Assembly (NCBI RefSeq): GCF_036826855.1
Contig: NZ_CP104578.1
Coordinates: 3,162,001 to 3,226,000 of the forward strand
Length of the DNA stretch: 64,000 bases
Reading direction: 5' to 3'
From: Streptomyces sp. SJL17-4
GTDB lineage: Bacteria; Actinomycetota; Actinomycetes; Streptomycetales; Streptomycetaceae
The notes beneath the pieces were generated by a model, which saw only the letters and a program-made list of their open reading frames with translations, did not search any database and was not told the DNA's origin. Below, in pieces: positions 6,396 to 57,731 of the stretch (positions within the stretch are counted from its first letter, which is position 1; each line of letters opens with the position of its first letter). The position numbers and the translations under genes were made by a program.

Positions 6396-6480
6396 GAGCT
6401 CGGTGGGTCAGGGGCTGAGCTCGGTGGGTCAGGGGCTGAGCTCGGTGGGTCAGGGGCTGAGCTCGGCGTGGTCAGGGGTT
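6396..6480. repeat. 21-bp tandem repeat spanning a stop codon
   Basis: Three exact copies of a 21-bp unit starting GAGCTCGGTGGGTCAGGGG at 6396, 6417 and 6438, plus a degenerate fourth copy (6459-6480) that holds the stop codon (6472-6474) and last codons of the minus-strand lipoprotein gene. Each downstream unit repeats that gene's final GAGCTC-CCCCTGA text. It appears to have grown out of the gene's 3' end. Confidence 0.9.
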
Positions 6481-8940
6481 GAGCTCGGCGCCCTTGGACG
6501 TCTCGGCCTTCTTGAAGCCGATGTCCTGGTAGCGCGGAGCGGCCAGGCCCCAGGCGCCGGCGTTCACCAGATCCGCCTTGGCGGCGACGAGCTGCGGGCG
6601 CTGGTAGAGGGGAATGGAGCCGGCGGCGGCCCAGATCCGGGCGTCGGCCTGGCGCACCAGCTCCCGGGCCTCCTCCTCGTCGAGCGTCCCCGCCGCCTGG
6701 TCGAACAGCTGGTCGATCCGGTCGGTGCCGACCCGCGAGTAGTTCTGCTCGACCAGGAGTGAGCCGTCCGAGGCGGGCTCGGGCTTGGCGAAGATCGGCC
6801 GGGCGTCGGTCGCCGGGAAGGCGGAGGCGGGCCAGGAGTAGAGCGCCAGGTCGTAGTCGCCCGAGGCCACGTGGTCCTTGAAGAAGCTGTCGTCGGAGAC
6901 CTTGGTGACCTCGGTGCGGATGCCGACGGCGTCGAGCATCCGGACGATCCGGTCGCCGACGGCCCGCAGCGACTCGGAGCCGGGGCCGGACGGCAGGACG
7001 AAGCGGAGGCTGAGCGCCTTGCCGTCCTTGCCGAGGGCCTTGCTCGCCTCGGGCGCCGTCACGGGGGCTGCGGTGCCGCGCGGGGCGTAGGCGCCGGCGA
7101 CGCCCTTGTCCGTACGCGCGATCGTCTGGGCGGCGTGCGCGCCGGCGCCCGTACCGGTGTCGAGTGCCTCGGCGCGGGCGAGGAGCGCGGCGCTCTGGCG
7201 TGCGGCCGCGGGGGCCGGGGCGAGGATGTTGGTGCCGTTCTCGGGGCCGGCGGCGCCGATGACGGGGGCGGGGGCGGCCCGGCGCTCGCCCGGCTTGTCG
7301 TCGCCGACGATGTAGAGGCCCTCGTCGGAGGCGGTGTCGGCGGCCTGCTTCTTGGCGTCGGTGGAGCCTGCGGCGTCCTTCTTCTCGCCCGCCTTCTCGG
7401 CGCCTTGCTTCTCGGCGCCCTTCTTCTCGGCGCCCTCCTTCTTCGCGCCCTCCTTCTCGGCGCCCTCCTTCTTCGCGTCCTCGGCCTTCTTCTCGGCCTC
7501 GCTGCCCGCCTTGGTGCCCGCGCCCGCGGGCTTCCTGGCCGCGCCGCCGGGGACCCAGCCCGCGTCGGCCAGGAGGGCCCGCGCCTCCTTGGTGTCCTGG
7601 TTGCCGAGGGCGTCGCTGCTGTCCGCGTACGCGGCCTGGCCCGCGAGGGCCAGATGGCTGCCGGGGGGATCCGCCGGGAGGCCGAGCGGCTTGAGTACGG
7701 ATTCGGCCAGTTCCCGGCGGTTGATCGCGCGGGCCACCGCTCGCCGTACCCGCTCGTCGGCGAGCGGCCCGGACTCGCCGTTCAGCGAGAGCTGGGTGTA
7801 GGCGGGCTCCAGGGACTTGCGGACGACGTACTTCGCCAGGATGTCCTGGGCGCTCGCGTACGCGGCGATGGCCTTCTGGTTCTTCTCGCGGGCGGCCTGG
7901 ACCTCCTCCGCCTTCTCCTCGTCGGAGCCGTGGGCCAGCGCCCAGGACTTCAGGGCCTTGGAGGGCGTGATCGAGGAGCCGGGGCCGTGGGCGAGGGCGG
8001 CCTGGGCGCCGCTGCGCCCGGCGCGGGCGTCGCGGAGGGCGAGGGAGATGCGCTCGGCGGTGGACCGGTCGATCTCGGCCAGATCGAGGGTGCCCTCGGC
8101 GAGGGCCTCCGCCCGGTCGGCGCGGGCGACGGCCTTGAGGACCATGCTGTCGAGCTTGGCCGGCTGTCCCCACCAGCGGGGGTTGCGGGCGAGGGTGACA
8201 TCGCCGTTCTTGCGGTCGATCGTCTTCAGCAGGAACGGTCCTGCGGTGGCCTTGAGGGTGGTGCGGGCCCCGTCGTTGAAGGAGTTCGGGGAGCCCATCA
8301 CCTGCTTCGGGTAGAGCGGGGTGAAGAGGGACTGCCAGTCGGCGTAGGGCTTGGAGAAGGTGACCCGTACCTCCAGGTCGTTCTTGCCCCGCTCGATCTT
8401 CTCGATCCGCTCGTAGCCGGAGTTCCGCGCGGTCCAGTACGCGGTGTCGCGGCCGCTCAGCGCCCGCCACTGGGCCACGAAGTCGGGTGCCCCGATCTCG
8501 CGTCCGTCGCTCCACTCCGCCTGCTGGTTGAGCTTGTAGAGGACGACCTGCTTGGGCTCCGTCTCGACGACCTGCGCGGACTCCAGGTAGTCGGGGTTCC
8601 GCTGTGGTCTGCCCCGCTCGTCGAGTGTGTAGAGGGCGGGGAGCACGGCCCCGGCGATCCGGGAGGTGGTGCCGTCGGCGTCGGCCTGGAAGGTGTTGAG
8701 GGTGGTGGGGAGCGCGTCGACGGCCCAGCGCAGAGTGCCTCCGTCGGCGACCTTGTCGCGGGCTGCGGGCGCGTTGTCCTGGACCGCGGCCCGGCTCTCG
8801 TCGGCCTCGTCGGTGGAACTGCACCCGGCGAGGACGGCGACGGCGAGGACGGCGCTGGTGAGGGTGGCGACGGAGCGGAGCGTGCGGGAGCGGGGGCTCC
8901 TGGAGCATGTCCTCCCGCGAGGGGCGCCGATCTGGGACAT
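6472..8940 (-). CDS. ABC transporter family substrate-binding lipoprotein, extra-long
   Basis: Secreted, lipid-anchored SBP_bac_5-type protein of about 822 residues, much longer than the usual 520-600. Starting at the ATG at 8940 (ribosome site GAAGGGG eight bases upstream) gives a lipoprotein signal ending LAGC with Cys40. The N-terminal half reads as a peptide-binding protein (VAQWRALSGRDTAYW, VMGSPNSFNDGA, WGQPAKLDSMVLK). At about residues 455-520 there is a low-complexity charged insert built from EKEGAKKEGAEK-like repeats, followed by an Ala-rich linker. The second lobe resumes after it (SLRFVLPSGPGSESLRAVGDRI). No transporter genes adjoin it. It may donate to another importer or have become a sensor-like protein. 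Confidence 0.85.
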   Translation of the reverse strand: MSQIGAPRGRTCSRSPRSRTLRSVATLTSAVLAVAVLAGCSSTDEADESRAAVQDNAPAARDKVADGGTLRWAVDALPTTLNTFQADADGTTSRIAGAVLPALYTLDERGRPQRNPDYLESAQVVETEPKQVVLYKLNQQAEWSDGREIGAPDFVAQWRALSGRDTAYWTARNSGYERIEKIERGKNDLEVRVTFSKPYADWQSLFTPLYPKQVMGSPNSFNDGARTTLKATAGPFLLKTIDRKNGDVTLARNPRWWGQPAKLDSMVLKAVARADRAEALAEGTLDLAEIDRSTAERISLALRDARAGRSGAQAALAHGPGSSITPSKALKSWALAHGSDEEKAEEVQAAREKNQKAIAAYASAQDILAKYVVRKSLEPAYTQLSLNGESGPLADERVRRAVARAINRRELAESVLKPLGLPADPPGSHLALAGQAAYADSSDALGNQDTKEARALLADAGWVPGGAARKPAGAGTKAGSEAEKKAEDAKKEGAEKEGAKKEGAEKKGAEKQGAEKAGEKKDAAGSTDAKKQAADTASDEGLYIVGDDKPGERRAAPAPVIGAAGPENGTNILAPAPAAARQSAALLARAEALDTGTGAGAHAAQTIARTDKGVAGAYAPRGTAAPVTAPEASKALGKDGKALSLRFVLPSGPGSESLRAVGDRIVRMLDAVGIRTEVTKVSDDSFFKDHVASGDYDLALYSWPASAFPATDARPIFAKPEPASDGSLLVEQNYSRVGTDRIDQLFDQAAGTLDEEEARELVRQADARIWAAAGSIPLYQRPQLVAAKADLVNAGAWGLAAPRYQDIGFKKAETSKGAELNP

Positions 8941-40915: not shown

Positions 40916-41371
40916 GTGATGCGCCAGTTGAGGATCTGGCGGAAAAACAAGACCGCTCGCTCGCACCGCACAGTCCCGCTCCCCCGCGTGGCGGTGGATG
41001 CGATGAAGGCCCACCTGCGGGACTTCCCCGCCGATGGGCCCGAGGGCTGGATCTTCACAGCGCCGCAAGGCGGACCCGTGGTCTACACGCACTTCATGGA
41101 CGCATCCTGGCGGCCCGCCCGCGCGAAGGCCGGCATACCGAAGGGCACCGGACCCCACGCCCTCCGGCACCACTACGCCAGCCTGCTGATCAAGCACGGC
41201 GAGTCCGTGAAGACCGTCTCCGAGCGCCTCGGCCACACCAACGCGGCCATGACGCTGAACATCTACACCCACCTGTGGCCCGACTCCGAGGAGCGGACCC
41301 GGGCCGCAGTCGACAAGGCGTACGCGGACCAGTCCGCCGATACCCGGCCGCAGGTCGAAGAAGCGGCGTAG
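40916..41371 (+). pseudogene. Tyrosine integrase C-terminal fragment (left copy)
   Basis: 151 codons open, matching only the end of a phage/ICE tyrosine recombinase. TARSHRTVPLPRVAVDAMKA is the region after the first catalytic Arg; then come HALRHHYASLLIKHGESVKT (His-x-x-Arg box), SERLGHTNAAMTLNIYTHLW (GHxx and the Tyr nucleophile). The N-terminal SAM-like domain and the first catalytic Arg are missing, so it cannot be active as it stands. From 41028 on it is nearly identical to the copy at 51501-51839. Confidence 0.85.
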
Positions 41372-41498
41372 CCGCTCCCCCATGCGCTGACCGAAGTCAG
41401 CACGCCGCGGACTCCGTGCGGACCGCAAAGGCCGCCCAACCCGCTCCGTCGCAGGTCAGACGGCCTTTCGCCGGACGTATCAGACGTTGAAGCGGAAC
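41028..41498. repeat. Left copy of the ~470-bp direct repeat bounding the island
   Basis: Identical to 51496-51967 apart from about four substitutions and one single-base indel (GTAT here, GTAAT there). It contains the integrase C-terminus, a spacer with an AAAGGCCG/CGGCCTTT hairpin, and the last 19 bp of ychF. Confidence 0.93.
41480..41498. other. Displaced attachment-site copy (ychF 3' end)
   Basis: TCAGACGTTGAAGCGGAAC is exactly the stop and last codons of ychF (FRFNV-stop read on the minus strand), but here no ychF adjoins it. It marks the left boundary of the inserted element. The core length is uncertain because the flanking repeat is longer. Confidence 0.7.
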
Positions 41499-41593: not shown

Positions 41594-41940
41594 TCACGCC
41601 GCAGGCGCGAAGGCCGTCTGCATGATGTCCCGACAACGATCCCACGACTCGGGGACCAGGTGTCCGTAGATGTCCACCGTGGTCTTGATCGACTTGTGGC
41701 CGAGCCAGCGCGAGACCTCGTGGATCGGGATGCCGGCGGCCAGCGCAGTTGAGGCGAAGAAGTGCCGGAGACTGCCGGGCGTGTACTTGGCCTTGCCGTC
41801 CACATCGACCAGGCCGGCCGACACGCACGCCTTCCTGAAGTGGTAGCCGTAGGTGGAGGCGGTGGGCATCACACCCTTGCCACGCTGACGCAGGGCGAAG
41901 AAGACCTCCAGCCGCTGTCGCCTGCCCCGCCGACCGGTGA
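41594..41940 (-). pseudogene. Second tyrosine integrase relic (C-terminal)
   Basis: On the minus strand TYGYHFRKACVSAGLVDVDG, then YTPGSLRHFFASTALAAGIP (a recombinase box-II-like segment) and HEVSRWLGHKSIKTTVDIYG, which includes the GHxx and Tyr nucleophile. It is unrelated in detail to the direct-repeat integrase. Coding similarity stops near 41940, where a plus-strand frame begins, so the N-terminal two-thirds have been lost. The relic shows that a second element once used this site. Confidence 0.75.
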
Positions 41941-42146
41941 AGTTCTGGCAGGTGGACGCCGGCCGCACGTACGGCGTCTCCGACCCCGGCCTGGACTGGG
42001 AACTCGACTGGAGTGCGCCCTGGGAGCACCTGGTCGAAAAGTCCCGCACCTGGTCCCTGCGGGAAGCCTCCGAAGCCCCCGTCGGCGACAACACCTTCGT
42101 CGTCCCCACCTGGATCGACTGTACCGACCTGTACCCGGATAAGTGA
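41937..42146 (+). CDS. Small hypothetical protein or fragment
   Basis: A 69-residue frame from a GTG: begins KFWQVDAGRTYGVSDPGLDW, and ends WIDCTDLYPDK. It has protein-like composition (many Trp, Asp, Tyr) but I recognise no family. It begins exactly where the integrase relic ends and overlaps the next frame by 4 bp (GTGA). It may be the C-terminal remnant of a longer cargo gene. Confidence 0.4.
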   Translation: MKFWQVDAGRTYGVSDPGLDWELDWSAPWEHLVEKSRTWSLREASEAPVGDNTFVVPTWIDCTDLYPDK

Positions 42147-42454
42147 CCGATGCCGTTCCGGCACCCGCGGAGACCAGCTGCGGCTACGTAGTCGAGCGCT
42201 GTGTCTTCGCGAAGGACGGGACCCCGCCCATGGGCCTGTCGCTCTCGAACACTTTGTTCCGATCATGGTCAATCCCGGTCGCCCCGAGGAACGGGCAGGG
42301 AACAACGAAGAACGAAAGAGGCAACGGGCAACACCGTCGAACCCCGATTCTCCAAACGAGGGTCGTGCCAGACTCAGTTTCGGACGCGAAGCGAAACGAC
42401 ACCGTTACAGCAAGTGTTCACCATCGGGTTTCGCGTCGACCGGTGGTCGTCTGA
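42143..42454 (+). CDS. Hypothetical protein or fragment
   Basis: 103 codons from a GTG overlapping the previous stop. The first 45 residues (SCGYVVERCVFAKDGTPPMG, LSLSNTLFRSW) look like real protein; the rest is Arg/Thr-rich and could be read-through. No family recognised. The low-GC run around 42300-42420 differs from the chromosome and fits foreign DNA. Confidence 0.3.
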   Translation: MTDAVPAPAETSCGYVVERCVFAKDGTPPMGLSLSNTLFRSWSIPVAPRNGQGTTKNERGNGQHRRTPILQTRVVPDSVSDAKRNDTVTASVHHRVSRRPVVV

Positions 42455-42512
42455 TGACGGCTCCCGTGAGGGCGGACGGCTCTCGCGGTCACTGTTCAAG
42501 GGGAGGTTGATG

Positions 42513-43766
42513 ATGAGCACGACTTTACGTTTTGGCCCGGAACTTCGCCGTTTACGAGTGGAAGCGGGGCTAACTCTTACCGAGTTCTCCGTGGCGCTCA
42601 ACTACGACAAGGGGCACCTCAGCAAGGTCGAGCGCGGAGAGCGTTCCGCGTCCCCCGAACTGGCCCGGCGGTGTGACGCCTTTCTCGGCGCGGACGGCGA
42701 ACTGCAGCGCCTGGTCGTCCGCCCCGAAGCGGACTCGGACTCGGGCTCCGCCGCCTCCCCCGCCGGTCCCTGCCGCTGGCTAGTCGGGCGTCGGGCAGTC
42801 CTCTCGGCGGGCACGGGAGTGCTGATCGACCTCGGCCTGAAACTCGGCGGTCAGGCGTTGTCCTACGCCGACGACCCCCTCCTGGGCTCCTACCGCATGC
42901 AATTCGACCAGCTGCGGAAGCTCGGCCAGTCCACCGCTCCCAAGATCTTGCTCCCCCTGTTGGAGGCGCAGACCCGCATGGTCGCCGGGCTCGCCTCCGA
43001 CGCCCGGTCCACCTCCCGGGCCCCTGCGTTCCTGCTCGCCTCACGGTTCGCGGAGTTCACCGGCTGGATGGCCCAGGAGGCCGGGGACAGCGACGCAGCA
43101 CTCGGCTGGACGGGCGAGGCCGTCGAATTGGCGCGCGCCGGGGGTGACCCGTACCTCGGTTCCTACGCACTGGTGCGGCGCGCCCTGGTCACAATGTACG
43201 GCGGGGACGCCGCTGGCACCGTCGCCCTGGCCCGCCGCGCCCAGAGCAGCGAACTCCCACCGCGCATCAGGGGACTCGCGGCCCAACGAGAGGCCCAAGG
43301 GCACGCGCTCGTCGGCAACGAAGTGGACTGCCTCCGCAGCCTCGATAGGGCGCGGGAACTGCTCGCCGACGATGACGCCCTCAACGGCGCCGAGCCCGTG
43401 ATCGGCACCTCACACGTGAGCGATCCGGCGGCGATGTCGACCGGCTGGTGTCTGCACGACCTCGGGCGCCCCAAGACTGCTGCCGAGGTACTCGACCGAG
43501 AGTACCGCCGCCTCCCGCCGCACGCGCTGCGTACCCGCGCCCGGTACGGCTTCCGCAGGTCCCTGGCACATGCCGCCTCCGGGGAGGTCGAGCACGCGTG
43601 CGCGATCGCCGGGGAGCTCCTGGGAGTGATGCCGGCCGTGCCCTCGGCGACGGTGAACAGCGACGTCCGACGCCTCTCACGGGAACTGTCCCGGTTTCGG
43701 AGCAGCCGCGCCGTACGTGATCTACAACCCGCGCTGGCGCGCGTACTCGCTCCCGCGCACGACTGA
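42513..43766 (+). CDS. XRE-family helix-turn-helix regulator with TPR-like sensor
   Basis: 417 residues from MSTTLRFGPELRRLRVEAGL; GGGAGG is six bases before this ATG (another ATG lies one codon upstream). The Cro/C1-type HTH is at about residues 6-60 (LTLTEFSVALNYDKGHLSKV, ERGERSASPELARRC). The C-terminal two-thirds are helical TPR-like repeats (LLASRFAEFTGWMAQEAGDS, DAALGWTGEAVELARAGGDP, AAQREAQGHALVGNEVDCLR). This domain plan is common in Streptomyces. It lies upstream of the TIR operon on the same strand and is its natural candidate regulator. Confidence 0.88.
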   Translation: MSTTLRFGPELRRLRVEAGLTLTEFSVALNYDKGHLSKVERGERSASPELARRCDAFLGADGELQRLVVRPEADSDSGSAASPAGPCRWLVGRRAVLSAGTGVLIDLGLKLGGQALSYADDPLLGSYRMQFDQLRKLGQSTAPKILLPLLEAQTRMVAGLASDARSTSRAPAFLLASRFAEFTGWMAQEAGDSDAALGWTGEAVELARAGGDPYLGSYALVRRALVTMYGGDAAGTVALARRAQSSELPPRIRGLAAQREAQGHALVGNEVDCLRSLDRARELLADDDALNGAEPVIGTSHVSDPAAMSTGWCLHDLGRPKTAAEVLDREYRRLPPHALRTRARYGFRRSLAHAASGEVEHACAIAGELLGVMPAVPSATVNSDVRRLSRELSRFRSSRAVRDLQPALARVLAPAHD

Positions 43767-44073: not shown

Positions 44074-44868
44074 ATGCCCGACGTCTTCGTCAACTACCGC
44101 ACAGGCGACGAGGAATCCGCCGCGACCATGATCGCCCGGGAGCTCACCCGGAGGTTCGGCGACGAGCGGATCTTCTTCGCCAGCAACTCAATTGATCCCG
44201 GACGCCGTTTCCCGGCGGAACTGGTCAGGGCGGTGGAGGAGTGCGAGGCGCTCCTCGCCGTGATCGGCCCGCGCTGGGCGGAGGTACGGGGGACCGACGG
44301 CCGCCCCGCGCTCGAAGCCGAACAGGACTGGACCCGTCGCGAGATCCAGACCGCGCTCGACCGCGGGATCCTGGTGATCCCCGTGCTCGTCGGAAAGGCC
44401 ACGCGGATCGACCGCACCGTCCTTCCGGACGATCTGCTGGAGCTGGCGGACTTCCAGTACAGGCGGTTCGACCACCGCAACGCCGAATCGGACCTGACGA
44501 CGCTCGGAGACACCCTCGCCCGGCTGCTGCCCGAGCTGAGCAGGGTGGACCGCGACGGCCGTGCGGCAAGGGAGCGGACGGAGGCGAAGTCACACGAGAA
44601 GTCGGCCCGGGACACCGGGCACATCAGGATGCGGACGCGTGACGTCGAACAGCGCGTGCGCGGCGGCATCGGAAACCTCAACGGAGACCTGTCCGGCACC
44701 TTCGTCAACGAGCCGCAGGGGCCCGTGAACACCGGCCGGGGCCACCAGTACAACGCGCCTCACTTCGAGGGCGACAACACCGGGGTCCAGTTCACCGCCG
44801 GCGACAACAGCGGTACGGTCCACCAGCGCTTCGAGCGCGAGCGCCGACGCTGGGACGACGGGCGATGA
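44074..44868 (+). CDS. TIR-domain effector with C-terminal GPVNxGxGHQY tail
   Basis: 264 residues. The TIR domain covers about 1-155: MPDVFVNYRTGDEESAATMI (strand A and BB-loop region), GDERIFFASNSIDPGRRFP, and DWTRREIQTALDRGILVIPV, where Glu90 sits in the position of the catalytic Glu of NAD-cleaving TIR domains. After a charged linker the C-terminus is Gly/Asn-rich: LNGDLSGTFVNEPQ, then GPVNTGRGHQYN at 216-227 and NTGVQFTAGDNSGTVHQ at 235-251. The same GPVN motif opens the next protein. The ATGA overlap with the next gene makes a coupled operon. Known families suggest NAD depletion upon activation; the trigger is unknown. Confidence 0.88.
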   Translation: MPDVFVNYRTGDEESAATMIARELTRRFGDERIFFASNSIDPGRRFPAELVRAVEECEALLAVIGPRWAEVRGTDGRPALEAEQDWTRREIQTALDRGILVIPVLVGKATRIDRTVLPDDLLELADFQYRRFDHRNAESDLTTLGDTLARLLPELSRVDRDGRAARERTEAKSHEKSARDTGHIRMRTRDVEQRVRGGIGNLNGDLSGTFVNEPQGPVNTGRGHQYNAPHFEGDNTGVQFTAGDNSGTVHQRFERERRRWDDGR

Positions 44869-46865
44869 CCGAGCAGGACCGCGTCACCGTCAGCGATCCG
44901 CACGGCCCGGTGAACAACGGCGAGGGGCATCAGTACGTCTTCTACGGCGCTGCCACGGACTGGATGACCCGCAAAGGGGTCGAGTCCCTCCGGATCGCCC
45001 TCGAGGACCGGGTGCGCCTGGCCGACCGGTTCGTTCCCCCTAGGGGCTACCGCATCGCCGCCGACCACTTGGAGAAACCAGGATCGGTGGTGCTGCTGGA
45101 GGGACCGCCCGGCAGCGGCCGCCGTGCCGCGGCAATCATGCTGCTGCACGGGGTCGGGGATGACAGGAACACCGACGAGGAGAGGGTTCGGGTCGAGGAG
45201 CTTCCCGCCACAGCCAAGGACGAGAACAGGAACGACAAGCCACTCACCCCCGGCGAGGGGGACCGTTTCCTTCTCGACCTCTCCGGGATCACCGACGAAG
45301 AGGAGTACACCAGGGCCCAGCGCCGTCTGGCCGTGCACCGGTCGAAGGTCCAGGAGGCGGGGGCCCACATGGTCGTCGTCCTGCCGTCGGTCATGGAGTA
45401 CGCCCATGCGCCGGACTTCGAACCGCACAGGGTGAAGCTGGAGCGCCCCCGGGGCGTCGCTGTCGTCACCCGGTACCTCCGCATGGACCGGATGGCCTTC
45501 CACCCTGCGGATCTGAGGAGCGCCGGCCTCCAGCACCTGTGTGACCGCTCCCCCATGCGGGAACTGGCGCGGCTCGCGAGGCTGGTGAAGGCCGCTCGCG
45601 ACAGTGGCCGGTTCGGATCCGACTTCGCGGGATGGCTCGACCAGGCGATGCACGCGGTGACCGACCGTGCCGGTGAGGTGGGTCAGCAGATGGTCGCGGT
45701 CCGCACCGCGCCCGAGCGGGCCTTGCTACTCGCGGCGGCAGTGTTCGAAGGATCTCGCGCAGACACCGTTTACGAGGCATGGCAACGCCTATTGAAGGAA
45801 GTGGGGCACAAGGAGGAGGTGACCTCCGAGTTCGCGCAGACGGACTTCGGGGAGCGGTTGAAAGCGCTCGGGATCGAACGGGCCCCGGACGGACGACTCC
45901 GCTTCGAGCGGCTGGCCTACGCCGACGCGGTGCGGACGTACTTCTGGGCGAACTTCCCCGGGGTACGCAACGGCCTCAGGGACTGGATCGGCTCTGCCGC
46001 CGAGCTGGACGGCCTGACCACCGACGACCAGGTGGACGTCGTCGTCCGCTTCGGCGAGCGGTCTCTGGCCGTCCGGCGGCCCGACGACCTCTTCGGCCTC
46101 GTGGTGCGCTGGGCGAACGACGCGGCCAGGGCGTCCAGCGATCCGCGAGCCGCGACAGCTCTCGAACTCGGTCTTCGGCACGAGGAGTTCGGGGGGCGGT
46201 TCCGCAGGCGGATGTACGAGTGCGTCACGAGGTCCGGCTCCTTGTCTGACGGCCTGGCCCGTGTCCTGACAACCGCCTGTCACCAGAGCCTCGGCGCGAC
46301 GCACCCAGATCAAGCAGTGGTGCGCCTCCACCACCTCGCCGTACGGAGGGAGGGGGCAGCGCACGGGGCCCGGGAAGCGCTTCTCGACCTCGCCGGCCGT
46401 GACCGTCGGCTCTACCGACTGCTGATCGACCGCCTGCGGGACCGGGCACGTCCGGAACAACCCGGGGCACATTCCCATCTCCACCTGCTCGCAGAGCTGT
46501 TGAGGAGCGACCGAGCGCCGGACCCACCCCGCTGGCCGGACCTGTTCCTGGGCTGGAAGACGGTGTTCTCGCAACCGCCGACGGAACTCTGGAACCCGCT
46601 GGTGAGCAGCTGGCTGGACGCCGTGGCGGACGACCGCACGCAAGAGATGGCGCTGGACGTGATGGTCAGGGCGACGCACGGCCGCACGGCCGCCCTCCAC
46701 CGCCTCTACGTCATCGCCTGCGGCTGGGCACGGTCTGCGCGCCACCCGTCCCGGGCAGCCGTCGCCGCCCTCTTCTGGCGGCACATCGACCAAGCGCAGT
46801 ACGCCCGCCCGGAGAGTAAGGAGCGTGCGGGCGCCGAACCACGGATCACGGAAGAGGAACGATGA
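44865..46865 (+). CDS. Large P-loop-like conflict protein (degenerate Walker A), TIR partner
   Basis: 666 residues. The N-terminus DPHGPVNNGEGHQYVFYG (about 11-28) repeats the motif at the TIR C-terminus. A P-loop-like segment follows, SVVLLEGPPGSGRRAAAIML, but the usual GK[ST] is GRR at residues 85-87; a Walker B-like strand is RFLLDLSGITDEEEY. The remaining 450 residues are helical (LERPRGVAVVTRYLRMDRMA, RALLLAAAVFEGSRADTVYE, RFERLAYADAVRTYFWANFP), like the helical sensor region of STAND-type proteins, though no clear repeat is seen. It overlaps both neighbours by 4 bp. Probably the sensor/scaffold of the system; family not recognised. Confidence 0.8.
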   Translation: MTEQDRVTVSDPHGPVNNGEGHQYVFYGAATDWMTRKGVESLRIALEDRVRLADRFVPPRGYRIAADHLEKPGSVVLLEGPPGSGRRAAAIMLLHGVGDDRNTDEERVRVEELPATAKDENRNDKPLTPGEGDRFLLDLSGITDEEEYTRAQRRLAVHRSKVQEAGAHMVVVLPSVMEYAHAPDFEPHRVKLERPRGVAVVTRYLRMDRMAFHPADLRSAGLQHLCDRSPMRELARLARLVKAARDSGRFGSDFAGWLDQAMHAVTDRAGEVGQQMVAVRTAPERALLLAAAVFEGSRADTVYEAWQRLLKEVGHKEEVTSEFAQTDFGERLKALGIERAPDGRLRFERLAYADAVRTYFWANFPGVRNGLRDWIGSAAELDGLTTDDQVDVVVRFGERSLAVRRPDDLFGLVVRWANDAARASSDPRAATALELGLRHEEFGGRFRRRMYECVTRSGSLSDGLARVLTTACHQSLGATHPDQAVVRLHHLAVRREGAAHGAREALLDLAGRDRRLYRLLIDRLRDRARPEQPGAHSHLHLLAELLRSDRAPDPPRWPDLFLGWKTVFSQPPTELWNPLVSSWLDAVADDRTQEMALDVMVRATHGRTAALHRLYVIACGWARSARHPSRAAVAALFWRHIDQAQYARPESKERAGAEPRITEEER

Positions 46866-48202
46866 AACACCGTTTTCCCAGCCTGCTGTTCGTCGCTCTC
46901 TGCGGCCTCGCACCGGCTGTGCTCGGACACTTTCTGGACTGGTCGGCATGGTTGTGGGGCTTTATGTCCATGGTCACGGCCTCCGGTTCCCTGCTGCTCG
47001 TGATGACGGTCCTCAGCAGTGGCCACACGTCCGCCGACCCGTACGAGCCCGGGGAGCCCGAGCCGCCCGCGGTGCCGACGGAGCAGCCGTACCAGGAGGC
47101 ACGGGTGGTCGACGCGGCGCTGTCGAGCGCGACGAACGGCTACGACTTCCTCTTCTCCGCCACCGTGTGGTGGAGGCCGGTCCCCGACCACGCCGGCCAG
47201 GCAGACAGTGCCTCCTCAGCCCTCGCCGTGTCCTCGGTCGTCAGCCGGGCCCTGGAGGTCGTCCGTCACGAGGAACCCGGCCGGGCCAGCTTCGCACGGT
47301 ATCTCTTGGAGGGGCAGCTGGGCATCCCGCTCCCCGACCTGAGCGGACGGGTGAAGGCCATGGCGGCCGATGTGACGCTGACCCTCGCCCCCGCCGACCG
47401 CGAACGCCTGCAGAAGCTGAACGACCTTCGCAAGGACGAGGAGATCTGGGAGTACGAGCGTCAGCACGAGCGCAACAAGCGGCGCTACCTCGGTGACGAC
47501 GTGCTCAAGAGCGCGGGCAGCGCGGTGGTGTGGTGGCTCGCCCGCCACGAGAACGAAATCGAGAAGGCGGTCGACATGATCGGCCCGCTCGCACAGGTCG
47601 CGGCGGCGGCCAACGACGAGGAAGTGCCCGAGCTCTTCCGCCACCTGCTCGTCCCACCCGTGAGCGCACGGAGCGAAGCGACCGTCGGGGGCCCGCTGTG
47701 GGACGGGGACGACCACGGAGGAGGGGTCTTCGACCGCGAGGAGGAAGTAGGGGTCTCGGATCGACTGCGCCTGTTGCTGACGGAGGCGGGCCTGAAGCCG
47801 GACATGGACGGGTACACGGTGCTCGCGCACCGCGTAATGAGGTTCTTGAAAACGGAGGGGCTGGACGAGGCCGCCGCCGAGATCAGGCAGGCCTTTGGCC
47901 TGGCTCCCGGCGATGGCCCGGAGGACGAGCCTTCGAGCGAGGGGAACACTACCGGCCCCTGGCCGCCCCGCTCCCCGGCCCCCGAAGGCCCGCCGTTCAC
48001 CGACCCGGACGTGGCCCCCGGTGCGAGCACGTTCACACCGAGGACGGCGGAGGGCAGCGCGAACGCCGGTGACCGGGACCAGGATCGGTGGGAGACGAGC
48101 GAGGACGACACTCCGCCTCCCCACTTCTGGGACCCGTCGCACAGCCCGCACCGGCCCGCCGAACCCCGCCCATGGAACGAGGACGACGAGAACGGGGTCT
48201 GA
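46862..48202 (+). CDS. Two-helix membrane protein of the TIR operon
   Basis: 446 residues. Two adjacent N-terminal membrane helices (FPSLLFVALCGLAPAVLGHF, then LWGFMSMVTASGSLLLVMTV) put the rest in the cytoplasm. A globular part with SSATNGYDFLFSATVWWRPV and an SPFH-like hint (MAADVTLTLAPADRERLQKL, then a charged helix EEIWEYERQHERNKRRYLGD) leads to VVWWLARHENEIEKAVDMIG. The last 90 residues are Pro/Asp-rich and disordered. The family is not recognised. Its 4-bp overlap with the P-loop gene suggests it anchors or regulates the complex at the membrane. Confidence 0.78.
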   Translation: MKHRFPSLLFVALCGLAPAVLGHFLDWSAWLWGFMSMVTASGSLLLVMTVLSSGHTSADPYEPGEPEPPAVPTEQPYQEARVVDAALSSATNGYDFLFSATVWWRPVPDHAGQADSASSALAVSSVVSRALEVVRHEEPGRASFARYLLEGQLGIPLPDLSGRVKAMAADVTLTLAPADRERLQKLNDLRKDEEIWEYERQHERNKRRYLGDDVLKSAGSAVVWWLARHENEIEKAVDMIGPLAQVAAAANDEEVPELFRHLLVPPVSARSEATVGGPLWDGDDHGGGVFDREEEVGVSDRLRLLLTEAGLKPDMDGYTVLAHRVMRFLKTEGLDEAAAEIRQAFGLAPGDGPEDEPSSEGNTTGPWPPRSPAPEGPPFTDPDVAPGASTFTPRTAEGSANAGDRDQDRWETSEDDTPPPHFWDPSHSPHRPAEPRPWNEDDENGV

Positions 48203-48702: not shown

Positions 48703-49149
48703 ATGAGCGATCTGTTGGACGCCGTGGACACGGCTCACAGCAACATCGAGCGCCTCACCGATCCGGGTGCACTACGCGACGCCACCGAGCAAGTGATCGC
48801 TGTCGCTCGCCAGTGCGGCGCCCAAGCGGTCCTTGCCGCCAGCCCCGTTGCCGAACGCTTGGTCGGCGCGCTCCTGTCGTCATGCAGCGACTTGGTCAGC
48901 TTGTCCTCGCAGGCAGCCGCAGCCTCACAGAACGTACTGATCGTGGACGTCAACCTTGCCAGCGGCACTACGGTGGCGCAGGCCGCCCGCCACGCCCGCA
49001 GCCGCGGAGCACGGCGTATCCACGCAGTCGTCCTCCATCAACTGACCGCGGTTGCAGCACAGGCCGCAGACTGCGGCGTAGATGCATTGGACGTCCTCGG
49101 AGAACGACCGCCGACCCGCTCTTTGTCTACGACAGATTCGGGTCTGTAG
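48703..49149 (+). CDS. Phosphoribosyltransferase-fold protein
   Basis: 148 residues from MSDLLDAVDTAHSNIERLTD. The type I PRTase signature is VLIVDVNLASGTTVAQAARH, with Ser-Gly-Thr-Thr as the PRPP 5'-phosphate loop; the usual paired acidic DD is DV-N here. AVLAASPVAERLVGALLSSC and RIHAVVLHQLTAVAAQAADC complete a Rossmann-like fold. Too little flanking sequence to name a substrate. It converges on, and overlaps by 23 bp, the RuvC-like gene. It may be one component of the kinase module. Confidence 0.7.
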   Translation: MSDLLDAVDTAHSNIERLTDPGALRDATEQVIAVARQCGAQAVLAASPVAERLVGALLSSCSDLVSLSSQAAAASQNVLIVDVNLASGTTVAQAARHARSRGARRIHAVVLHQLTAVAAQAADCGVDALDVLGERPPTRSLSTTDSGL

Positions 49150-49609
49150 TAGATGCAGCGGGCAAACCCGTAAGGGCCGCAGCAGCGGCCACCGATCGCC
49201 TAGAGTCCAGCGTCTTACCGCGTGCCAGTGCCTCCGCCTTGCTCAGGCCAAGCGCCTCGCCGACTTCCTTGCCGTTGCGGTACACAACCTGCTGGATCTT
49301 GTGATCGCGACACACGTATCCGAGAGCACCTTCGATCATGAGGCGATGTCGGGGTGCCGCCTTGCGGTTCCCGGCGGGACTAACGTCCGCAACGCAGATC
49401 ACCACGGCGTTGGGATTCAAGGCCGAGAGCTTGCTACTGAGCATGCGCCCCAGGTCTTCAACCTGGTCGATGACCTCCAACGCCGCCGTTCGAAGCTCAC
49501 AAGCCTCCTGAATCTGGGGCTCGTCCTGCGATCCTCCCAGGACAACGCAGGTAACTACAGGGCCTCGCCCTGCCGCTGGAAAGCCCACACTGATCCCAAG
49601 TACCTCCAT
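49127..49609 (-). CDS. RNase H/RuvC-fold-like protein
   Basis: 160 residues from MEVLGISVGFPAAGRGPVVT. The order of strands (LGISVG, then NPNAVVICVADVSPAGNRKA, then LGYVCRDHKIQQVVYRNGKE and GLSKAEALARGKTLDSRR) resembles RuvC/Holliday-resolvase-like RNase H folds, though the first catalytic Asp of the usual DPG motif is Ser here. The assignment is tentative. It starts at an ATG with no ribosome site; a -10 hexamer TATAGT ends seven bases upstream, so the mRNA is probably leaderless. It diverges from the kinase gene across 24 bp. Confidence 0.62.
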   Translation of the reverse strand: MEVLGISVGFPAAGRGPVVTCVVLGGSQDEPQIQEACELRTAALEVIDQVEDLGRMLSSKLSALNPNAVVICVADVSPAGNRKAAPRHRLMIEGALGYVCRDHKIQQVVYRNGKEVGEALGLSKAEALARGKTLDSRRSVAAAAALTGLPAASTTDPNLS

Positions 49610-49616
49610 GCACAGC

Positions 49617-49626
49617 ACTATAGAGT
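49617..49626. promoter_or_regulatory. Overlapping divergent -10 boxes for two leaderless genes
   Basis: On the minus strand TATAGT (49622-49617) is followed by GCTGTGC and the ATG at 49609. On the plus strand TAGAGT (49621-49626) is followed by GACAGGC and the ATG at 49634. Both -10 boxes end seven bases before an ATG and overlap by two bases. Neither gene has a Shine-Dalgarno sequence. Confidence 0.65.
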
Positions 49627-49633
49627 GACAGGC

Positions 49634-50698
49634 ATGTCGGGAACGGTCATCGCCCAGGTCGGCAACCACCAGGTCGGGAACCGCATCAGTGATCGCTACA
49701 AGGTGCTGGAACACCTCGGGGGCGGGGCTGGTGGCCAGGTCTATCGGGTCGAGGACGAGCATCTGCGCGCAGAGGTGGCGCTCAAGCTCTTCGAACCGCA
49801 GTCAGGTCAGCCAGCCACGTGGGACGAAGCCCAGGCGCTCAAGGAGCTGCAGAGCCAGTACCTCCTCCCCGTCTACAACGCCGACATCGCCAGCGGGACC
49901 GACATCCGCTACATCACGATGCCCGTCATGGACGGCGATCTTGAAACAGCTTCAGTACCGTTCGGCATCGACATCGCCAAGGCGGTGCGCTGGGGCCAGC
50001 AGCTCGGGCACGGACTTGAGCGCGTCCACGCCGCCGGCCTACTGCATCGCGACGTCAAACCAGGCAACGCGTTCGTCGACACCGGCAACAACGTCCTGCT
50101 GGGAGATCTTGGTTTTGCCGCGCGGATGGATGCCGACGGCTATACCGCCGCGAACGGAACATACGCCACCGTAGCTCCGGAGGTACTGAGTACAGGCAAA
50201 TGCTCGGTGGCCTCAGACGTCTACTCGCTGGCTGCCACCATGTTCTACCTCCTGTCCGGGCAGTACCCGAACGGGCCGATAACCCTGGGACGAAGCGCCC
50301 GCAGGGAGCGAATTCTCCACGGCCAGTTCGACAAACTGCGCGATGTCGCCCCGCATGTCTCCCAGGGCCTCGGCAGCGTCGTCGAGCGAGGACTCTCTCT
50401 CGATCCAGTTGCTCGTCCCAGCAGCGCGCAAGCTCTCGCAAACCAACTCGCTCAATGTGTACGCCCTCACAGACCTTGGCGCCGCGTCACACCCCACGAC
50501 GGTCACGACCAATGCTTTGAAGGGGGCGCCACCAACACGGCGAAGGCAGTCTCGGTCTGCGCGGTACAGGACGCACGTGGGCGCTACGGCGTCGAGGTGC
50601 GCCACGAGACAGGCCGGCGAGCACGCCAGCACGAGAAGAGCGGACTCCAACGAGACAGCCTTCCTGCCGCTTTGCGCACTGTGCTTCGCAACCTCTAG
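49634..50698 (+). CDS. Serine/threonine protein kinase
   Basis: 354 residues. The Gly-rich loop LGGGAGGQVYRVED, ATP lysine in VALKLF (Lys51), catalytic loop LLHRDVKPGNAFVD (Asp about 140), and DLG in place of DFG (LLGDLGFAARMDADG) are all present, with an APE-like TVAPEVL. The kinase domain ends near residue 275. The remaining 75 residues hold a His/Cys-containing segment (RRVTPHDGHDQCFEGGATNT) instead of the membrane helix and PASTA domains of housekeeping kinases, so it is soluble. Kinases of this type recur in defence islands. It starts leaderless, opposite the RuvC-like gene. Confidence 0.88.
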   Translation: MSGTVIAQVGNHQVGNRISDRYKVLEHLGGGAGGQVYRVEDEHLRAEVALKLFEPQSGQPATWDEAQALKELQSQYLLPVYNADIASGTDIRYITMPVMDGDLETASVPFGIDIAKAVRWGQQLGHGLERVHAAGLLHRDVKPGNAFVDTGNNVLLGDLGFAARMDADGYTAANGTYATVAPEVLSTGKCSVASDVYSLAATMFYLLSGQYPNGPITLGRSARRERILHGQFDKLRDVAPHVSQGLGSVVERGLSLDPVARPSSAQALANQLAQCVRPHRPWRRVTPHDGHDQCFEGGATNTAKAVSVCAVQDARGRYGVEVRHETGRRARQHEKSGLQRDSLPAALRTVLRNL

Positions 50699-51495: not shown

Positions 51496-51500
51496 CCGCC

Positions 51501-51839
51501 GATGGGCCCGAGGGCTGGATCTTCACAGCGCCGCAAGGCGGGCCCGTGGTCTACACGCACTTCATGGACGCATCCTGGCGGCCCGCCCGCGCGAAGGCCG
51601 GCATACCGAAGGGCACCGGACCCCACGCCCTCCGGCACCACTACGCCAGCCTGCTGATCAAGCACGGCGAGTCCGTGAAGACGGTCTCCGAGCGCCTCGG
51701 CCACACCAGCGCGGCCATGACGCTGAACATCTACACCCACCTGTGGCCCGACTCCGAGGAGCGGACCCGGGCCGCAGTCGACGAGGCGTACGCGGACCAG
51801 TCCGCCGATACCCGGCCGCAGGTCGAAGAAGCGGCGTAG
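51501..51839 (+). pseudogene. Tyrosine integrase C-terminal fragment (right copy)
   Basis: 113 codons with the His-x-x-Arg box (HALRHHYASLLIKHG), LGHTSAAMTLNIYTHLW with the Tyr nucleophile, and the same C-terminus as the left copy. It differs by a few residues (Asn to Ser, Lys to Glu). No N-terminal part and no start codon of its own: the sequence upstream is a different, broken gene. Confidence 0.85.
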
Positions 51840-51948
51840 CCGCTCCCCCATGCGCTGACCGAAGTCAGCACGCCGCGGACTCCGTGCGGACCGCAAAGGC
51901 CGCCCAACCCGCTCCGTCGCAGGTCAGACGGCCTTTCGCCGGACGTAA

Positions 51949-51967
51949 TCAGACGTTGAAGCGGAAC
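51949..51967. other. Attachment site at the 3' end of ychF
   Basis: TCAGACGTTGAAGCGGAAC, the stop and last codons of ychF, is repeated at 41480-41498. Integration that restores the gene's 3' end would leave ychF functional, as seen. Confidence 0.7.
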
Positions 51968-53037
51968 TCCACCACGTCGCCGTCCTGCATGACGTACTCC
52001 TTGCCCTCCATGCGGGCCTTGCCCGCCGAGCGGGCGTCGGCGACCGAGCCGGTTTCCACGAGGTCGGCGAAGGAGATGACCTCGGCCTTGATGAAGCCCT
52101 TCTGGAAGTCGGTGTGGATGACACCGGCCGCCTCGGGGGCCGTCGCGCCCTGCTTGATCGTCCAGGCGCGGGATTCCTTCGGGCCGGCCGTCAGGTAGGT
52201 CTGGAGGCCCAGGGTCGCGAAGCCCACGCGGGCGAGGGTCGCCAGGCCCGGCTCCTCGGCGCCGACCGACTGGAGGAGCTCCATGGCGTCCTCCTCGTCC
52301 AGCTCCGCCAGGTCCTGCTCCAGCTTCGCGTTCAGGAAGATCGCCTCCGCCGGGGCGACCAGCGCGCTCTGCTCGGCCTTGAACGCGTCGTCCGTCAGCT
52401 CGTCCTCGTCCACGTTGAAGACGTAGAGGAACGGCTTGGTGGTGAGGAGGTGCAGGTCGTGGAGGAGCTCCGCCTTCTCCGAGCCCTGCACGATGCCCTG
52501 CGAGAAGAGGGTGTCGCCCTTCTCCAGGATCGCCTGGGCGGCCTCGACGGCCGCGACCTTCGGCGCCGTGTCCTTCTTGATCCGCATCTCCTTCTGGAGG
52601 CGCGGCAGGACCTTCTCGATCGTCTGGAGGTCCGCGAGGATCAGCTCCGTGTTGATCGTCTCGATGTCGTCCTTCGGCGAGACCTTGCCGTCGACGTGCA
52701 CGACGTTCTCGTCCTTGAAGGCGCGGATGACCTGGCAGATCGCATCCGACTCGCGGATGTTCGCCAGGAACTTGTTGCCGAGGCCCTCGCCCTCGCTCGC
52801 GCCGCGCACGATGCCCGCGATGTCGACGAAGTCGACCGTCGCCGGGAGGATCCGCTGCGAGGAGAAGATCTCCGCGAGCTTGGTCAGGCGGGCGTCGGGG
52901 ACACCGACGACTCCGACGTTGGGCTCGATCGTGGCGAACGGGTAGTTGGCCGCCAGCACGTCGTTCTTGGTCAGGGCGTTGAACAGGGTCGACTTGCCGA
53001 CATTCGGCAGACCGACGATTCCGATCGTGAGCGACAC
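51949..53037 (-). CDS. ychF: Redox-regulated ATPase/GTP-binding protein YchF (OBG family)
   Basis: 362 residues. Walker A is GLPNVGKSTLFNALTKND at about residues 9-26. The switch regions follow (NYPFATIEPNVGVV, VDFVDIAGIVRGASEGEG), then a helical domain, and the C-terminal TGS domain (LQTYLTAGPKESRAWTIKQG, DVVEFRFNV). YchF prefers ATP to GTP and binds ribosomes. Its intact 3' end coincides with the island attachment site. Confidence 0.97.
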   Translation of the reverse strand: MSLTIGIVGLPNVGKSTLFNALTKNDVLAANYPFATIEPNVGVVGVPDARLTKLAEIFSSQRILPATVDFVDIAGIVRGASEGEGLGNKFLANIRESDAICQVIRAFKDENVVHVDGKVSPKDDIETINTELILADLQTIEKVLPRLQKEMRIKKDTAPKVAAVEAAQAILEKGDTLFSQGIVQGSEKAELLHDLHLLTTKPFLYVFNVDEDELTDDAFKAEQSALVAPAEAIFLNAKLEQDLAELDEEDAMELLQSVGAEEPGLATLARVGFATLGLQTYLTAGPKESRAWTIKQGATAPEAAGVIHTDFQKGFIKAEVISFADLVETGSVADARSAGKARMEGKEYVMQDGDVVEFRFNV

Positions 53038-55944: not shown

Positions 55945-57315
55945 ATGGCCGAGGAATCTCAGGTGGCGGCGCGCGGGAAAGACGCGGAACATACGGGACT
56001 TCGACGGAACCTCGGGTTCCGGGACCTGGTCGTCTACGGGCTCCTCTTCATCGCTCCCATGGCGCCCGTCGGTGTCTTCGGCACGCTCGACGCGAAGTCC
56101 GGCGGCGCGGTCGCACTCGTGTACGTCGTGGCCACGGTGGCCATGGCGTTCACGGCCTTCAGCTACGCGCAGATGGTCCGGGTCGCCCCGCAGGCCGGCT
56201 CCGTCTTCACGTACGCGCGCAAGGGCCTCGGCGAAGGGCCGGGATTCATCGCCGGCTGGATGGCGATGCTCGACTACCTGCTGATCCCGGCGGTCGCCTA
56301 TCTCTTCGCGGGCATCGCGATGGAGGCGCTGGTCCCGGAGGTCGACCGGTGGGTGTGGACCGGGATCGCCGTCGTCGTCACGACCCTGCTCAACCTCTGG
56401 GGCGTACGGGCGGCCGCCCGGGTCGGCTTCGCGGTGCTCGCGATGGAGATCGTCGTCCTGCTCGTCTTCGTCGTCGCCGCGATCGTGGTGCTCGCGCAGG
56501 ACGGGGCGCGGCGCGACTGGTGGTCGCCGCTCGCCGGTGACGCCTCGTTCTCGCCGGCCGCCGTCATCGGCGCGGTGTCCGTGGCCGTCCTGTCCTACCT
56601 GGGCTTCGACGCGATCGCCTCCTTCGCGGAGGAGGTCACGGGCGGCTCGGCGAAGGTGGCCCGCGCGGTGCTGTTCTGCCTGGCCCTCGCGGGTGTCCTG
56701 TTCATCGCGCAGACCTGGCTGGTCGCGCTGCTCGAACCGGTCTCGTCGGCCGAGCTCGCCGCCGATCCGGGAAAGCAGGGGTCGGCCTTCTACGACGCCG
56801 TCGAGAGCGCGGTCGGCGGCTGGCTGCACGACCTCGTGGCCGTCTCGAAGGCGATCGGCGCGGCCTTCGCGGCGCTCGCGGGGCAGGCGGCCGGTGGCCG
56901 TCTCCTCTTCGCGATGGGCCGCGACCGGCGCCTGCCGCACGTGCTCGCCCGGACGGACGGGGGCGTGCCGCGGGTGGCGCTCCTGGTGTCGGCGACGGTG
57001 ACGATGATCGCGGCGGTGTGGGCGGCCCGGCGGGACGACGGCCTCGACCACCTGGTGTCGGTCGTGGACGTGGGCGCGCTGACGGCCTTCGTCCTGCTGC
57101 ACGCGAGCGTGGTGGGCTGGTTCGCGGTACGGCGGGCGGAGGGCCCGCCGCACTGGCTGAAGCACATCGTCCTCCCGGTGGTGGGCGCGGCGATCCTGAT
57201 CGCGGTCATCGTGGAGGCCTCGGTGTCGGCGCAGGTGGTGGGCGTGGTGTGGCTGGGCGTGGGCCTGATCGTCCTGGCCGTACAGGGAGCGACGAGAACC
57301 CCGGCGCGCGACTGA
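55945..57315 (+). CDS. APC-superfamily amino acid permease
   Basis: 456 residues from [20 protein letters not shown]; a GTG 18 bp upstream is an alternative. About 12 membrane helices with APC family signatures: [20 protein letters not shown] opens helix 1 and its unwound region, [20 protein letters not shown] is the helix 2-3 consensus, and [20 protein letters not shown] marks helix 6. Expected to import an amino acid or amine. It diverges from ispH across 63 bp. Confidence 0.92.
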
Positions 57316-57322
57316 GCCGCGC

Positions 57323-57402
57323 CGAGCCGCCGAGCCGCCGAGCCGCCGAGCCGCCGAGCCGCCGAGCCGCCGAGCCGCCGAGCCGCCGAGCCGCCGAGCC
57401 GC
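57323..57402. repeat. 8-bp tandem repeat after a stop codon
   Basis: About nine copies of GCCGAGCC following the TGA of the APC permease gene (57313-57315), whose text TGAGCCGCGCCGAGCC already contains a degenerate unit. The 8-bp period is not a multiple of three. Confidence 0.9.
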
Positions 57403-57731
57403 CCGGAACTTCGCGCGCGGCGTCTGGTTACGGGCCGCGGGGCGGGCCGCGTCGGGCTTGGGCTACCAGGCCGAGGCCGGGTGCGGGACGGGTTTGGGCG
57501 CGCGAGCGTGCCCGCGGCCCCTGGGGCCCCGGGTACACGCGCAGCCCGTGCCGGAACCCGGTACTCGGGACGAGGGGGCAGGCGTACGCGGCCGGGGCCG
57601 AAGCCAGGCCTCGGGGCAGAGGCGTACGGGACCGGGCGAGGCGTACGGGGCCGGGGCCTGGCCGCAGGGCCGGGGGCCGGGGCACACGGCCGGGGCGACC
57701 GGTCCTCGGCGCGGGGCACGCGCGCGTGCCC
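57403..57731. other. GC-rich spacer without a gene
   Basis: About 330 bases of very GC-rich, low-complexity sequence rich in GGCCGGGGCC and AGGCGTACG words. Reading frames are open on several strands at once but show no protein-like pattern. It holds the promoter region of xseA at its right end. Confidence 0.55.

Follow-up and report, generated by a model that had tools for sequence, protein, structure and literature searches.

A conserved four-gene TIR module of Streptomyces with a motif shared by the TIR protein and a STAND-like NTPase

Introduction

What might a TIR protein, a P-loop protein and a membrane protein do together when their genes overlap one another? The question is raised by a locus of Streptomyces sp. 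SJL17-4, whose genome is a single contig of 8.54 Mb (NZ_CP104578.1). It lies in the window, which is the whole stretch of 64,000 nucleotides that was analysed (positions 3,162,001 to 3,226,000 of the contig). A sequence-only reading had seen here three genes overlapping by 4 base pairs (bp) each, encoding a TIR effector with a catalytic-type Glu, a 666-residue protein with a P-loop-like segment that would be its STAND-like partner, and a two-helix membrane protein, behind an XRE regulator on a repeat-bounded mobile island; the combination with the membrane protein matched no type that it recognised. On the comparisons of related loci, an NsdA-family regulator, the TIR protein, a STAND-like nucleoside triphosphatase (NTPase) and the membrane protein are inherited together, and the tail of the TIR protein carries a motif that matches one at the head of the NTPase. 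We favour, with modest confidence, the view that the four genes form a conflict or cell-death module, in which the STAND-like sensor would template the clustering of the TIR protein and the loss of nicotinamide adenine dinucleotide (NAD+) at an SPFH-like platform. New beyond the sequence-only reading are the motif shared by the two proteins, the SPFH-like fold, the recurrence of the regulator across loci and the presence of a ychF gene end in the flanking repeats.

A conserved unit of four genes

The genes of the unit are as follows.

42507..43766, + strand: NsdA-family regulator with helix-turn-helix and tetratricopeptide-repeat-like character, the first gene of the conserved unit; its start is putative, within an open frame at 42201-43766
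44074..44868, + strand: TIR protein of 264 residues, with the TIR domain at residues 4-135 (Glu90) and a long tail after the domain
44865..46865, + strand: STAND-like NTPase of 666 residues, with a helical superhelix at the C-terminus
46862..48202, + strand: membrane protein of 446 residues, with a two-helix hairpin, an SPFH-like domain and a low-confidence C-terminus

The last three are consecutive on the + strand and joined by two ATGA overlaps of 4 bp, exactly as had been described. Is this trio a unit elsewhere? The genus survey covered 392 Streptomyces genomes with the NTPase (P0002) as the query (expectation value E ≤ 1e-5), and with the own genome and distant paralogues counted, relatives were found in 107 of them. 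It gave 123 match rows, 92 of which correspond to the 90 loci examined, the remaining 31 being fragments, weak or further matches. The trio stands in the conserved order in 77 of the 79 trio-branch loci (the window's own counted). All 30 close loci encode it, the own locus among them and two with broken frames (L025 and L028), as do 47 of the 49 more distant ones; the two exceptions are L035, which lacks the membrane gene, and L063, which lacks the membrane gene and has a broken TIR gene. When named genomes were searched with the alignment of the membrane proteins, 227 relatives were found, and the best 80, taken as 78 loci, include 72 with the complete trio. Six loci are incomplete, with split genes in L146 and L185, degradation in L147, L157 and L158, and a fusion in L186; these six were excluded from the counts of alignment rows, overlaps and motifs given below. 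In L147, the membrane gene is apparently whole, the NTPase gene is a remnant and the TIR gene is gone. The two sets of loci overlap and comprise about 125 distinct loci. Thus, homologous trios, whose absence from other genomes the sequence-only reading had set as a ground for giving up its proposal, occur at locus after locus.

Counted per junction, each of the two trio junctions keeps the 4-bp overlap in 53 of 72 loci. Moreover, the ratio of nonsynonymous to synonymous changes (pN/pS), compared with 14 relatives in ten segments, is below 1 in all ten. The recurrence, the overlaps and these ratios together rule out chance or an annotation artefact as the source of the trio. The closest named loci among the matches listed are from Streptomyces (S. 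pacificus and S. dysideae), and the named genomes also include loci of Streptosporangium, Planomonospora, Kitasatospora and Mangrovactinospora. Sampling of the phylum gave 2 positives among 396 genomes, the own genome and one congeneric; the NTPase had zero matches in a phage collection, and the membrane protein had two matches on plasmids.

The locus of S. benahoarensis (L186) contains one open frame (5119-6765) in which the TIR domain and the soluble SPFH-like domain are joined, with the NTPase, the shared motif and the membrane helices all missing. This fusion is either a deletion product or an assembly artefact.

The regulator belongs to the same unit. The XRE gene matches HTH_31 (E=1.7e-13) and, above the cut-off, the NsdA family NF053720 (1.6e-49), in line with the regulator that had been seen upstream. 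Within a redundant set of 147 loci, the window's own counted, an NsdA-family regulator lies 5′ of the TIR gene on the same strand in 135, at a gap of 17-912 bp (median 118 bp) and with an identity of 41-100%. In the other 12, the TIR gene is at a contig end (L047, L116, L124 and L190), is not recognisable (L147, L157 and L158, the latter two of which still have the regulator), or has no regulator matched upstream (L031, L035, L155, L165 and L186). Because the regulator is found upstream in 135 of the 147 loci, we regard the conserved unit as four genes, not three: the trio stood as a set of conserved genes, and its limits were drawn one gene too narrow.

The TIR protein

The TIR protein matches Pfam TIR_2 above the cut-off (E=4.5e-11), as do 33 of 33 members of its family. 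The catalytic-type Glu is in place: Glu90 lies within a DWxxxEI motif, and Asp85, Trp86 and Glu90 are invariant in the 73 aligned rows. With the family profile, the best match among solved structures is the TIR domain of SARM1 (7e-15; 4.1e-5 for the window protein alone). In the alignment with SARM1, Glu90 falls on the Glu of DWVHKEI, which we take to be the catalytic Glu of SARM1. These residues suggest that the protein is an NADase.

PADLOC gave only a weak ThsB match for the TIR protein (13.2 bits), and zero matches for the NTPase and the membrane protein. The module resembles Thoeris (ThsA/ThsB, type III) in having a TIR protein as the probable NAD+-acting component and a protein with two transmembrane segments in the operon, and differs from it in possessing a STAND-like NTPase and no matched ThsA-like domain. 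The scores rule out that it is Thoeris: the ThsB match is weak, ThcB4 reaches 24.1 bits where the cut-off is 220, and a ThsA-type effector is unmatched. A Thoeris-like logic is a broader idea, in which the TIR protein would make an ADP-ribose-type messenger, the SPFH-like protein would be the responding effector, for example by opening the membrane, and the NTPase would be the sensor. The shared operon of the TIR protein and the two-helix protein, together with the weak likeness to ThsB and ThcB4, fits this idea; SIR2, Macro, SLOG and other known messenger-binding domains, however, are unmatched in the three proteins, and the solved structure closest to the TIR protein is that of SARM1, a NAD hydrolase. 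We therefore consider it improbable.

The STAND-like NTPase

The pairing of the TIR protein with a STAND-like protein is borne out by profile and by fold. The nSTAND3 profile is matched by 27 of 29 NTPase members when matches with E up to 10 are counted (best 1.1e-7); the window NTPase alone gives 0.0014, below the cut-off. The AlphaFold2 model has a predicted local distance difference test (pLDDT) score of 83.7, and its top Foldseek matches are AAA+ proteins (RFC, RuvB, ORC/Cdc6 and FtsH), with low TM-scores; SAMD9 follows at 1.1e-4, and Avs4, NLRP1 and Dark at 1.1e-3 to 1.5e-3, likewise with low TM-scores. The P-loop-like segment is present with one substitution:

45102..45125, + strand: Walker-A-like GPPGSGRR, NTPase residues 80-87, with Arg in place of Lys

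The same replacement of the Walker-A Lys by Arg is found in 70 of 73 aligned rows, and 70 of 73 retain the Walker-B-like Asp138. The Walker-A Arg means that the use of ATP may be unusual; hence, we call the protein STAND-like and do not file it as a member of the STAND class, whose profile and fold it shares and whose Walker-A Lys it lacks. Like the single-protein STAND defences (Avs and TIR-NLR), it has a STAND-like NTPase domain with a helical C-terminus, and Avs4 is among its structural matches (E=1.1e-3). In contrast to these, the TIR domain is encoded by a separate gene, the Walker-A Lys is replaced, and the chain has 666 residues as compared to 1534 in Avs4.

The membrane protein

The two helices described earlier are present, and the description was incomplete, as an SPFH-like domain is predicted besides them.

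46874..47017, + strand: two predicted membrane helices, membrane protein residues 5-25 and 29-52 (AlphaFold2 and hydrophobicity windows)
47093..47611, + strand: SPFH-like domain and the following helices, membrane protein residues 78-250 (AlphaFold2 and Foldseek)

In the AlphaFold2 model, the two N-terminal helices are followed by two strands, helices, a third strand and a long helix, and the pLDDT of the domain is mostly >90. At E ≤ 0.001, 12 of 12 Foldseek matches are SPFH proteins (erlin, HflK/C and prohibitin), followed by vault-protein and stomatin entries, and the whole-chain TM-scores to the SPFH matches are low (0.15-0.28). The model thus suggests that the protein carries an SPFH-like domain beside its two helices. 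Since the fold matches without sequence similarity, we name the protein SPFH-like and do not file it in the SPFH family. With the SPFH scaffolds (HflK/C, prohibitin, erlin and stomatin) it has in common the predicted fold and the topology of membrane helices, SPFH-like domain and long helix; it differs from them in that Band_7 sequence similarity is undetectable and that its gene travels with the TIR and NTPase genes.

Band7-like domains are, in the parts of the paper available, counted among the superstructure-forming domains of other conflict systems (Kaur et al. 2020, PMC7159879). We found no description of an SPFH or stomatin protein combined with a TIR protein in phage defence in the open-licence literature, which is weak evidence of absence and consistent with the earlier remark that the combination is undescribed.

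A motif shared by the TIR tail and the NTPase head

What could connect the NTPase to the TIR protein? A candidate link lies on either side of the junction between their genes.

44689..44823, + strand: TIR C-terminal tail, residues 206-250, a candidate amyloid-signalling segment; its core GPVNTGRGHQY is at 44719-44751
44904..44936, + strand: NTPase N-terminal motif GPVNNGEGHQY, residues 14-24, inside segment 1-44, which is predicted to be disordered (AlphaFold2 pLDDT <50)

The tail reads FVNEPQGPVNTGRGHQYNAPHF, and the NTPase start, after six residues, reads VTVSDPHGPVNNGEGHQYVFYG. Tail and own head align by Smith-Waterman, and tblastn with the TIR protein even matches the NTPase start in L006, L020 and L021 (E ~1e-3). 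We scored tails against heads in 26 representatives with NTPase bodies <60% identical, drawn from 76 loci, which are the 79 trio-branch loci after exclusion of L025, L028 and L063 with their broken frames. The mean score of the tail with its own head is 59.5, as compared to 45.3 (standard deviation 1.8) for permuted pairs, and none of 20000 permutations reaches 59.5. The own head beats shuffled heads (p<0.01) in 22 of the 26 representatives, and the head outscores the best window of the body of the same NTPase also in 22 of 26.

Is the match specific to the cognate pair? Among the 22 motif-bearing representatives, the four motif-less ones being excluded, the cognate pair outscores the pair formed with the nearest relative by 17 to 4 with one tie (Wilcoxon p=0.0012), and the reciprocal comparison gives 14 to 7 (p=0.012). 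The explanation that the match merely reflects phylogeny is thereby partly answered: the cognate partner beats the nearest relative, and a partial Mantel test, described below, is null.

The motif is also found where the layout places it. With an expression that was loosened after the sequences had been inspected, it occurs in 67 of 72 tails, 60 of 72 heads, and both together in 58 of the 72 intact named-genome loci, as compared to 1.9 tails, 0.4 heads and 0.05 of both expected from residue shuffling; a stricter expression, with heads partly shortened by the choice of start codon, gives 67 tails, 51 heads and both in 49 of 72. In the same 72 loci, the motif is absent from NTPase residues 81-600, TIR residues 1-150 and the whole membrane protein.

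A recent duplication of DNA across the TIR/NTPase junction would be another source of the match. In the window and 21 representatives, 165 of the 325 residues identical between tail and head use the same codon (a fraction of 0.51, where 0.48 is expected; p=0.37). This background level rules out the duplication and argues that the match is kept at the protein level and is not a recent DNA copy. The TIR tail (residues 206-250) has the lowest pN/pS of the ten segments, 0.07, followed by 0.23 in the TIR domain and 0.30-0.61 in the other eight.

Neither the TIR gene nor the membrane gene is present in a paralogue branch of the NTPase, which comprises 11 loci (L080-L090) and carries a different motif of the VTQVGGDY type at the NTPase N-terminus, such as AEASGHARVTQVGRDYTEHHH in L081. 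The gene upstream of it ends in a motif of the like kind, such as SGHAQVVQVGGDQITY in L082; five proteins encoded by this upstream gene were scanned and matched zero Pfam families above the cut-off. The sharing was seen by eye in 6 of the 11 loci (L080, L081, L082, L084, L085 and L087). A single NTPase family appears to employ two or more classes of motif, and in each class the upstream partner shares the motif.

Placed in this way in adjacent genes, the tail and head motifs have the layout of NLR-associated amyloid signalling motifs. The bacterial motifs of this kind called BASS reportedly go back to Dyrka et al. in 2020. In the portions of the sources available, BASS motifs sit at the N-terminus of a bacterial NLR and at the C-terminus of the adjacent protein (PMC7889193, PMC12261475, PMC8086366), the partner is mostly a Bell and less often a CHAT or TIR protein, and an amyloid coupling of NLR-like sensors to effectors is proposed mainly from sequence (PMC7889193). 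Our module shares with the layout reported there the adjacent genes for a STAND-like protein and an effector, the single motif at the N-terminus of the former and at the C-terminus of the latter, the actinobacterial host and the TIR protein, an occasional partner in BASS pairs (PMC7889193). It differs in consisting of four genes, two of which encode an NsdA-type regulator and the SPFH-like membrane protein, and in that the partner is TIR, not Bell. Identity with the fungal sigma motif is not claimed, as the E-values of NACHT_sigma are insignificant. As far as the source text at hand goes, the EAD-coupled systems of multicellular bacteria likewise place a coupling module on a core component and on an effector of adjacent genes (PMC7159879); here, in contrast, the coupler is a short motif predicted to be disordered and not a folded EAD, and MoxR-vWA, GTPase and caspase are missing from the conserved unit. 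EAD models are not among the Pfam hits of the 33 TIR and 29 NTPase members, the EAD content of the Pfam copy being unchecked.

Proposed mechanism

Sensing: In the resting state, the NTPase would be monomeric and the TIR protein inactive. A trigger, probably a phage, would be sensed by the superhelix of the NTPase, which would then oligomerise and gather its disordered N-terminal motifs.

Templating: Once gathered, the motifs could give rise to a cross-beta nucleus on which the matching motif in the TIR tails would be templated, in the manner put forward for NLR-associated amyloid signalling.

Execution: The clustered TIR domains would cleave NAD+, and the cell would stop or die. The SPFH-like two-helix protein might hold or limit the complex by forming a patch or cage in the membrane, and expression of the module would be set by the NsdA-type regulator.

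Several observations weigh against this mechanism. The matching pair is absent in 4 of the 26 representatives, and the expression behind the motif counts was, as said, adjusted after inspection. Only 5 of 22 representatives have the cognate partner in first rank, and the partial Mantel test, with NTPase and TIR-domain similarity controlled, gives a null result (r=-0.04; the observed value is reached or exceeded in 1245 of 2000 permutations), so that the specificity of the motif must be called modest. The NTPase head (residues 1-45) has a pN/pS of 0.44, like the rest of the NTPase, and is thus under no special constraint, which speaks against the simple picture of two equally constrained partners. 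NACHT_sigma is matched by 3 of 33 members, weakly and not significantly (E=0.75 per protein), and the only NACHT_sigma match of the own genome up to E=10 has E=2.26. ATP-driven switching of the NTPase is uncertain, owing to the Walker-A Arg. Finally, besides the low TM-scores, sequence searches do not support the membrane protein as an SPFH protein, and it is the predicted fold that retains the assignment: Band_7 (PF01145) is matched by 0 of 32 membrane-protein members, a profile search of solved structures gave nothing below E=0.35, and hhalign against eight Band_7 proteins of the own genome gave a probability of 0.5%, which is no improvement on the controls, at 0.1% and 1.6% for the NTPase and TIR alignments.

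Some of these points fit a different coupling, in which the tail and the head would pair up as a heterodimer of the ordinary beta-arch or solenoid kind, or bind a common third protein such as the SPFH-like one; the alarm from sensor to TIR protein would be kept, without prion-like templating. Such docking would suit a motif that is short and polar and a pair that is missing or altered in a few clades, as well as the modest cognate preference, the lack of special constraint on the head and the presence of the SPFH-like partner at nearly every locus. Against it, the placement at head and tail of adjacent genes is, in the accessible text of PMC7889193, how amyloid NLR signalosomes were recognised, and the paralogue branch repeats this layout with another motif. 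We regard docking as rather unlikely and rank it second, behind prion-like templating and above the Thoeris-like logic and the developmental switch considered below.

If templating is correct, the signalosome would have a dedicated membrane platform as a regular part of the module. A prion-like assembly of a TIR NADase on an SPFH-like scaffold could then be a bacterial counterpart of the amyloid death signalling of animals and fungi, an idea that we put forward tentatively. The module is a compact and recurrent case, in which the two motifs match better in cognate pairs than with the nearest relative more often than not, and the enzyme would have a simple read-out, NAD+. To the proposed amyloid coupling it adds a regulator of its own and a membrane component that is SPFH-like, and it allows us to ask whether a SARM1-like NADase is templated in a prion-like manner in bacteria and what role SPFH-like scaffolds play in immunity.

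The repeat-bounded island

Is the module mobile? The bounding repeats and the adjoining gene are as follows.

41028..41498, strand not assigned: left direct repeat, with an integrase 3′ fragment and the 19-bp ychF 3′ end at 41480-41498
51496..51967, strand not assigned: right direct repeat, with an integrase 3′ fragment and the ychF 3′ end at 51949-51967
51949..53037, - strand: ychF (YchF-GTPase_C, 1.8e-38), whose 3′ end is a putative attachment site

The direct repeats of 472 bp, 98.9% identical, flank the module on both sides as had been noted; each contains the 3′ portion of a tyrosine integrase gene and terminates in the 19-bp copy of the ychF 3′ end (41480 and 51949). A ychF gene is convergent to the module, at a distance of 47-4629 bp, in 36 of the 147 loci. 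Twenty-nine of these 36 were scanned for two copies of the attachment site, and a second copy of the ychF end (at most 2 mismatches) lies beyond the regulator in 5 of the 29 (the window, L092, L119, L127 and L144); in L144, the four genes lie between the two copies, in a segment of about 7 kb. The pattern points to the 3′ end of ychF as the insertion site, for some loci only. That the island is mobile is likely, but this second copy is missing from most of the ychF loci scanned.

Mobility bears on what the module is for. Instead of defending against phages, it might switch on cell death of the mycelium during development or under stress: the loci occur in filamentous actinomycetes, an NsdA-family regulator accompanies 135 of the 147, and regulators of this family are linked to sporulation and, in the source text available, to antibiotic control. 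The patchy distribution in the genus (107 of 392 genomes), the decay of the module in L146, L147, L157, L158 and L185, and the repeat-flanked ychF insertion at some loci, on the other hand, are more in keeping with a conflict gene than with a core gene of development. We consider the developmental switch the least probable of the explanations; the antiphage role is a putative one.

Inside the repeats, the window also contains a short phosphoribosyltransferase-like gene (below the Pfam cut-off) and a Ser/Thr kinase gene (Pkinase, 8.9e-32) at 48703-50698. Within the short flanks of the 147 loci, these genes were found outside the own locus only in S. dysideae (L135), at 100%. They arrived either with or after the insertion of the module.

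Beside the left repeat, at 41594-42109 on the - strand, lies the C-terminal fragment of another, different integrase-like protein, which looks by eye like a tyrosine recombinase and has tblastn matches in 16 of the 147 loci (own counted). Farther downstream, at 57304-57415, the window carries a tandem array of the 8-bp unit CGCCGAGC, with ten 40-nucleotide copies in register at a spacing of 8 bp.

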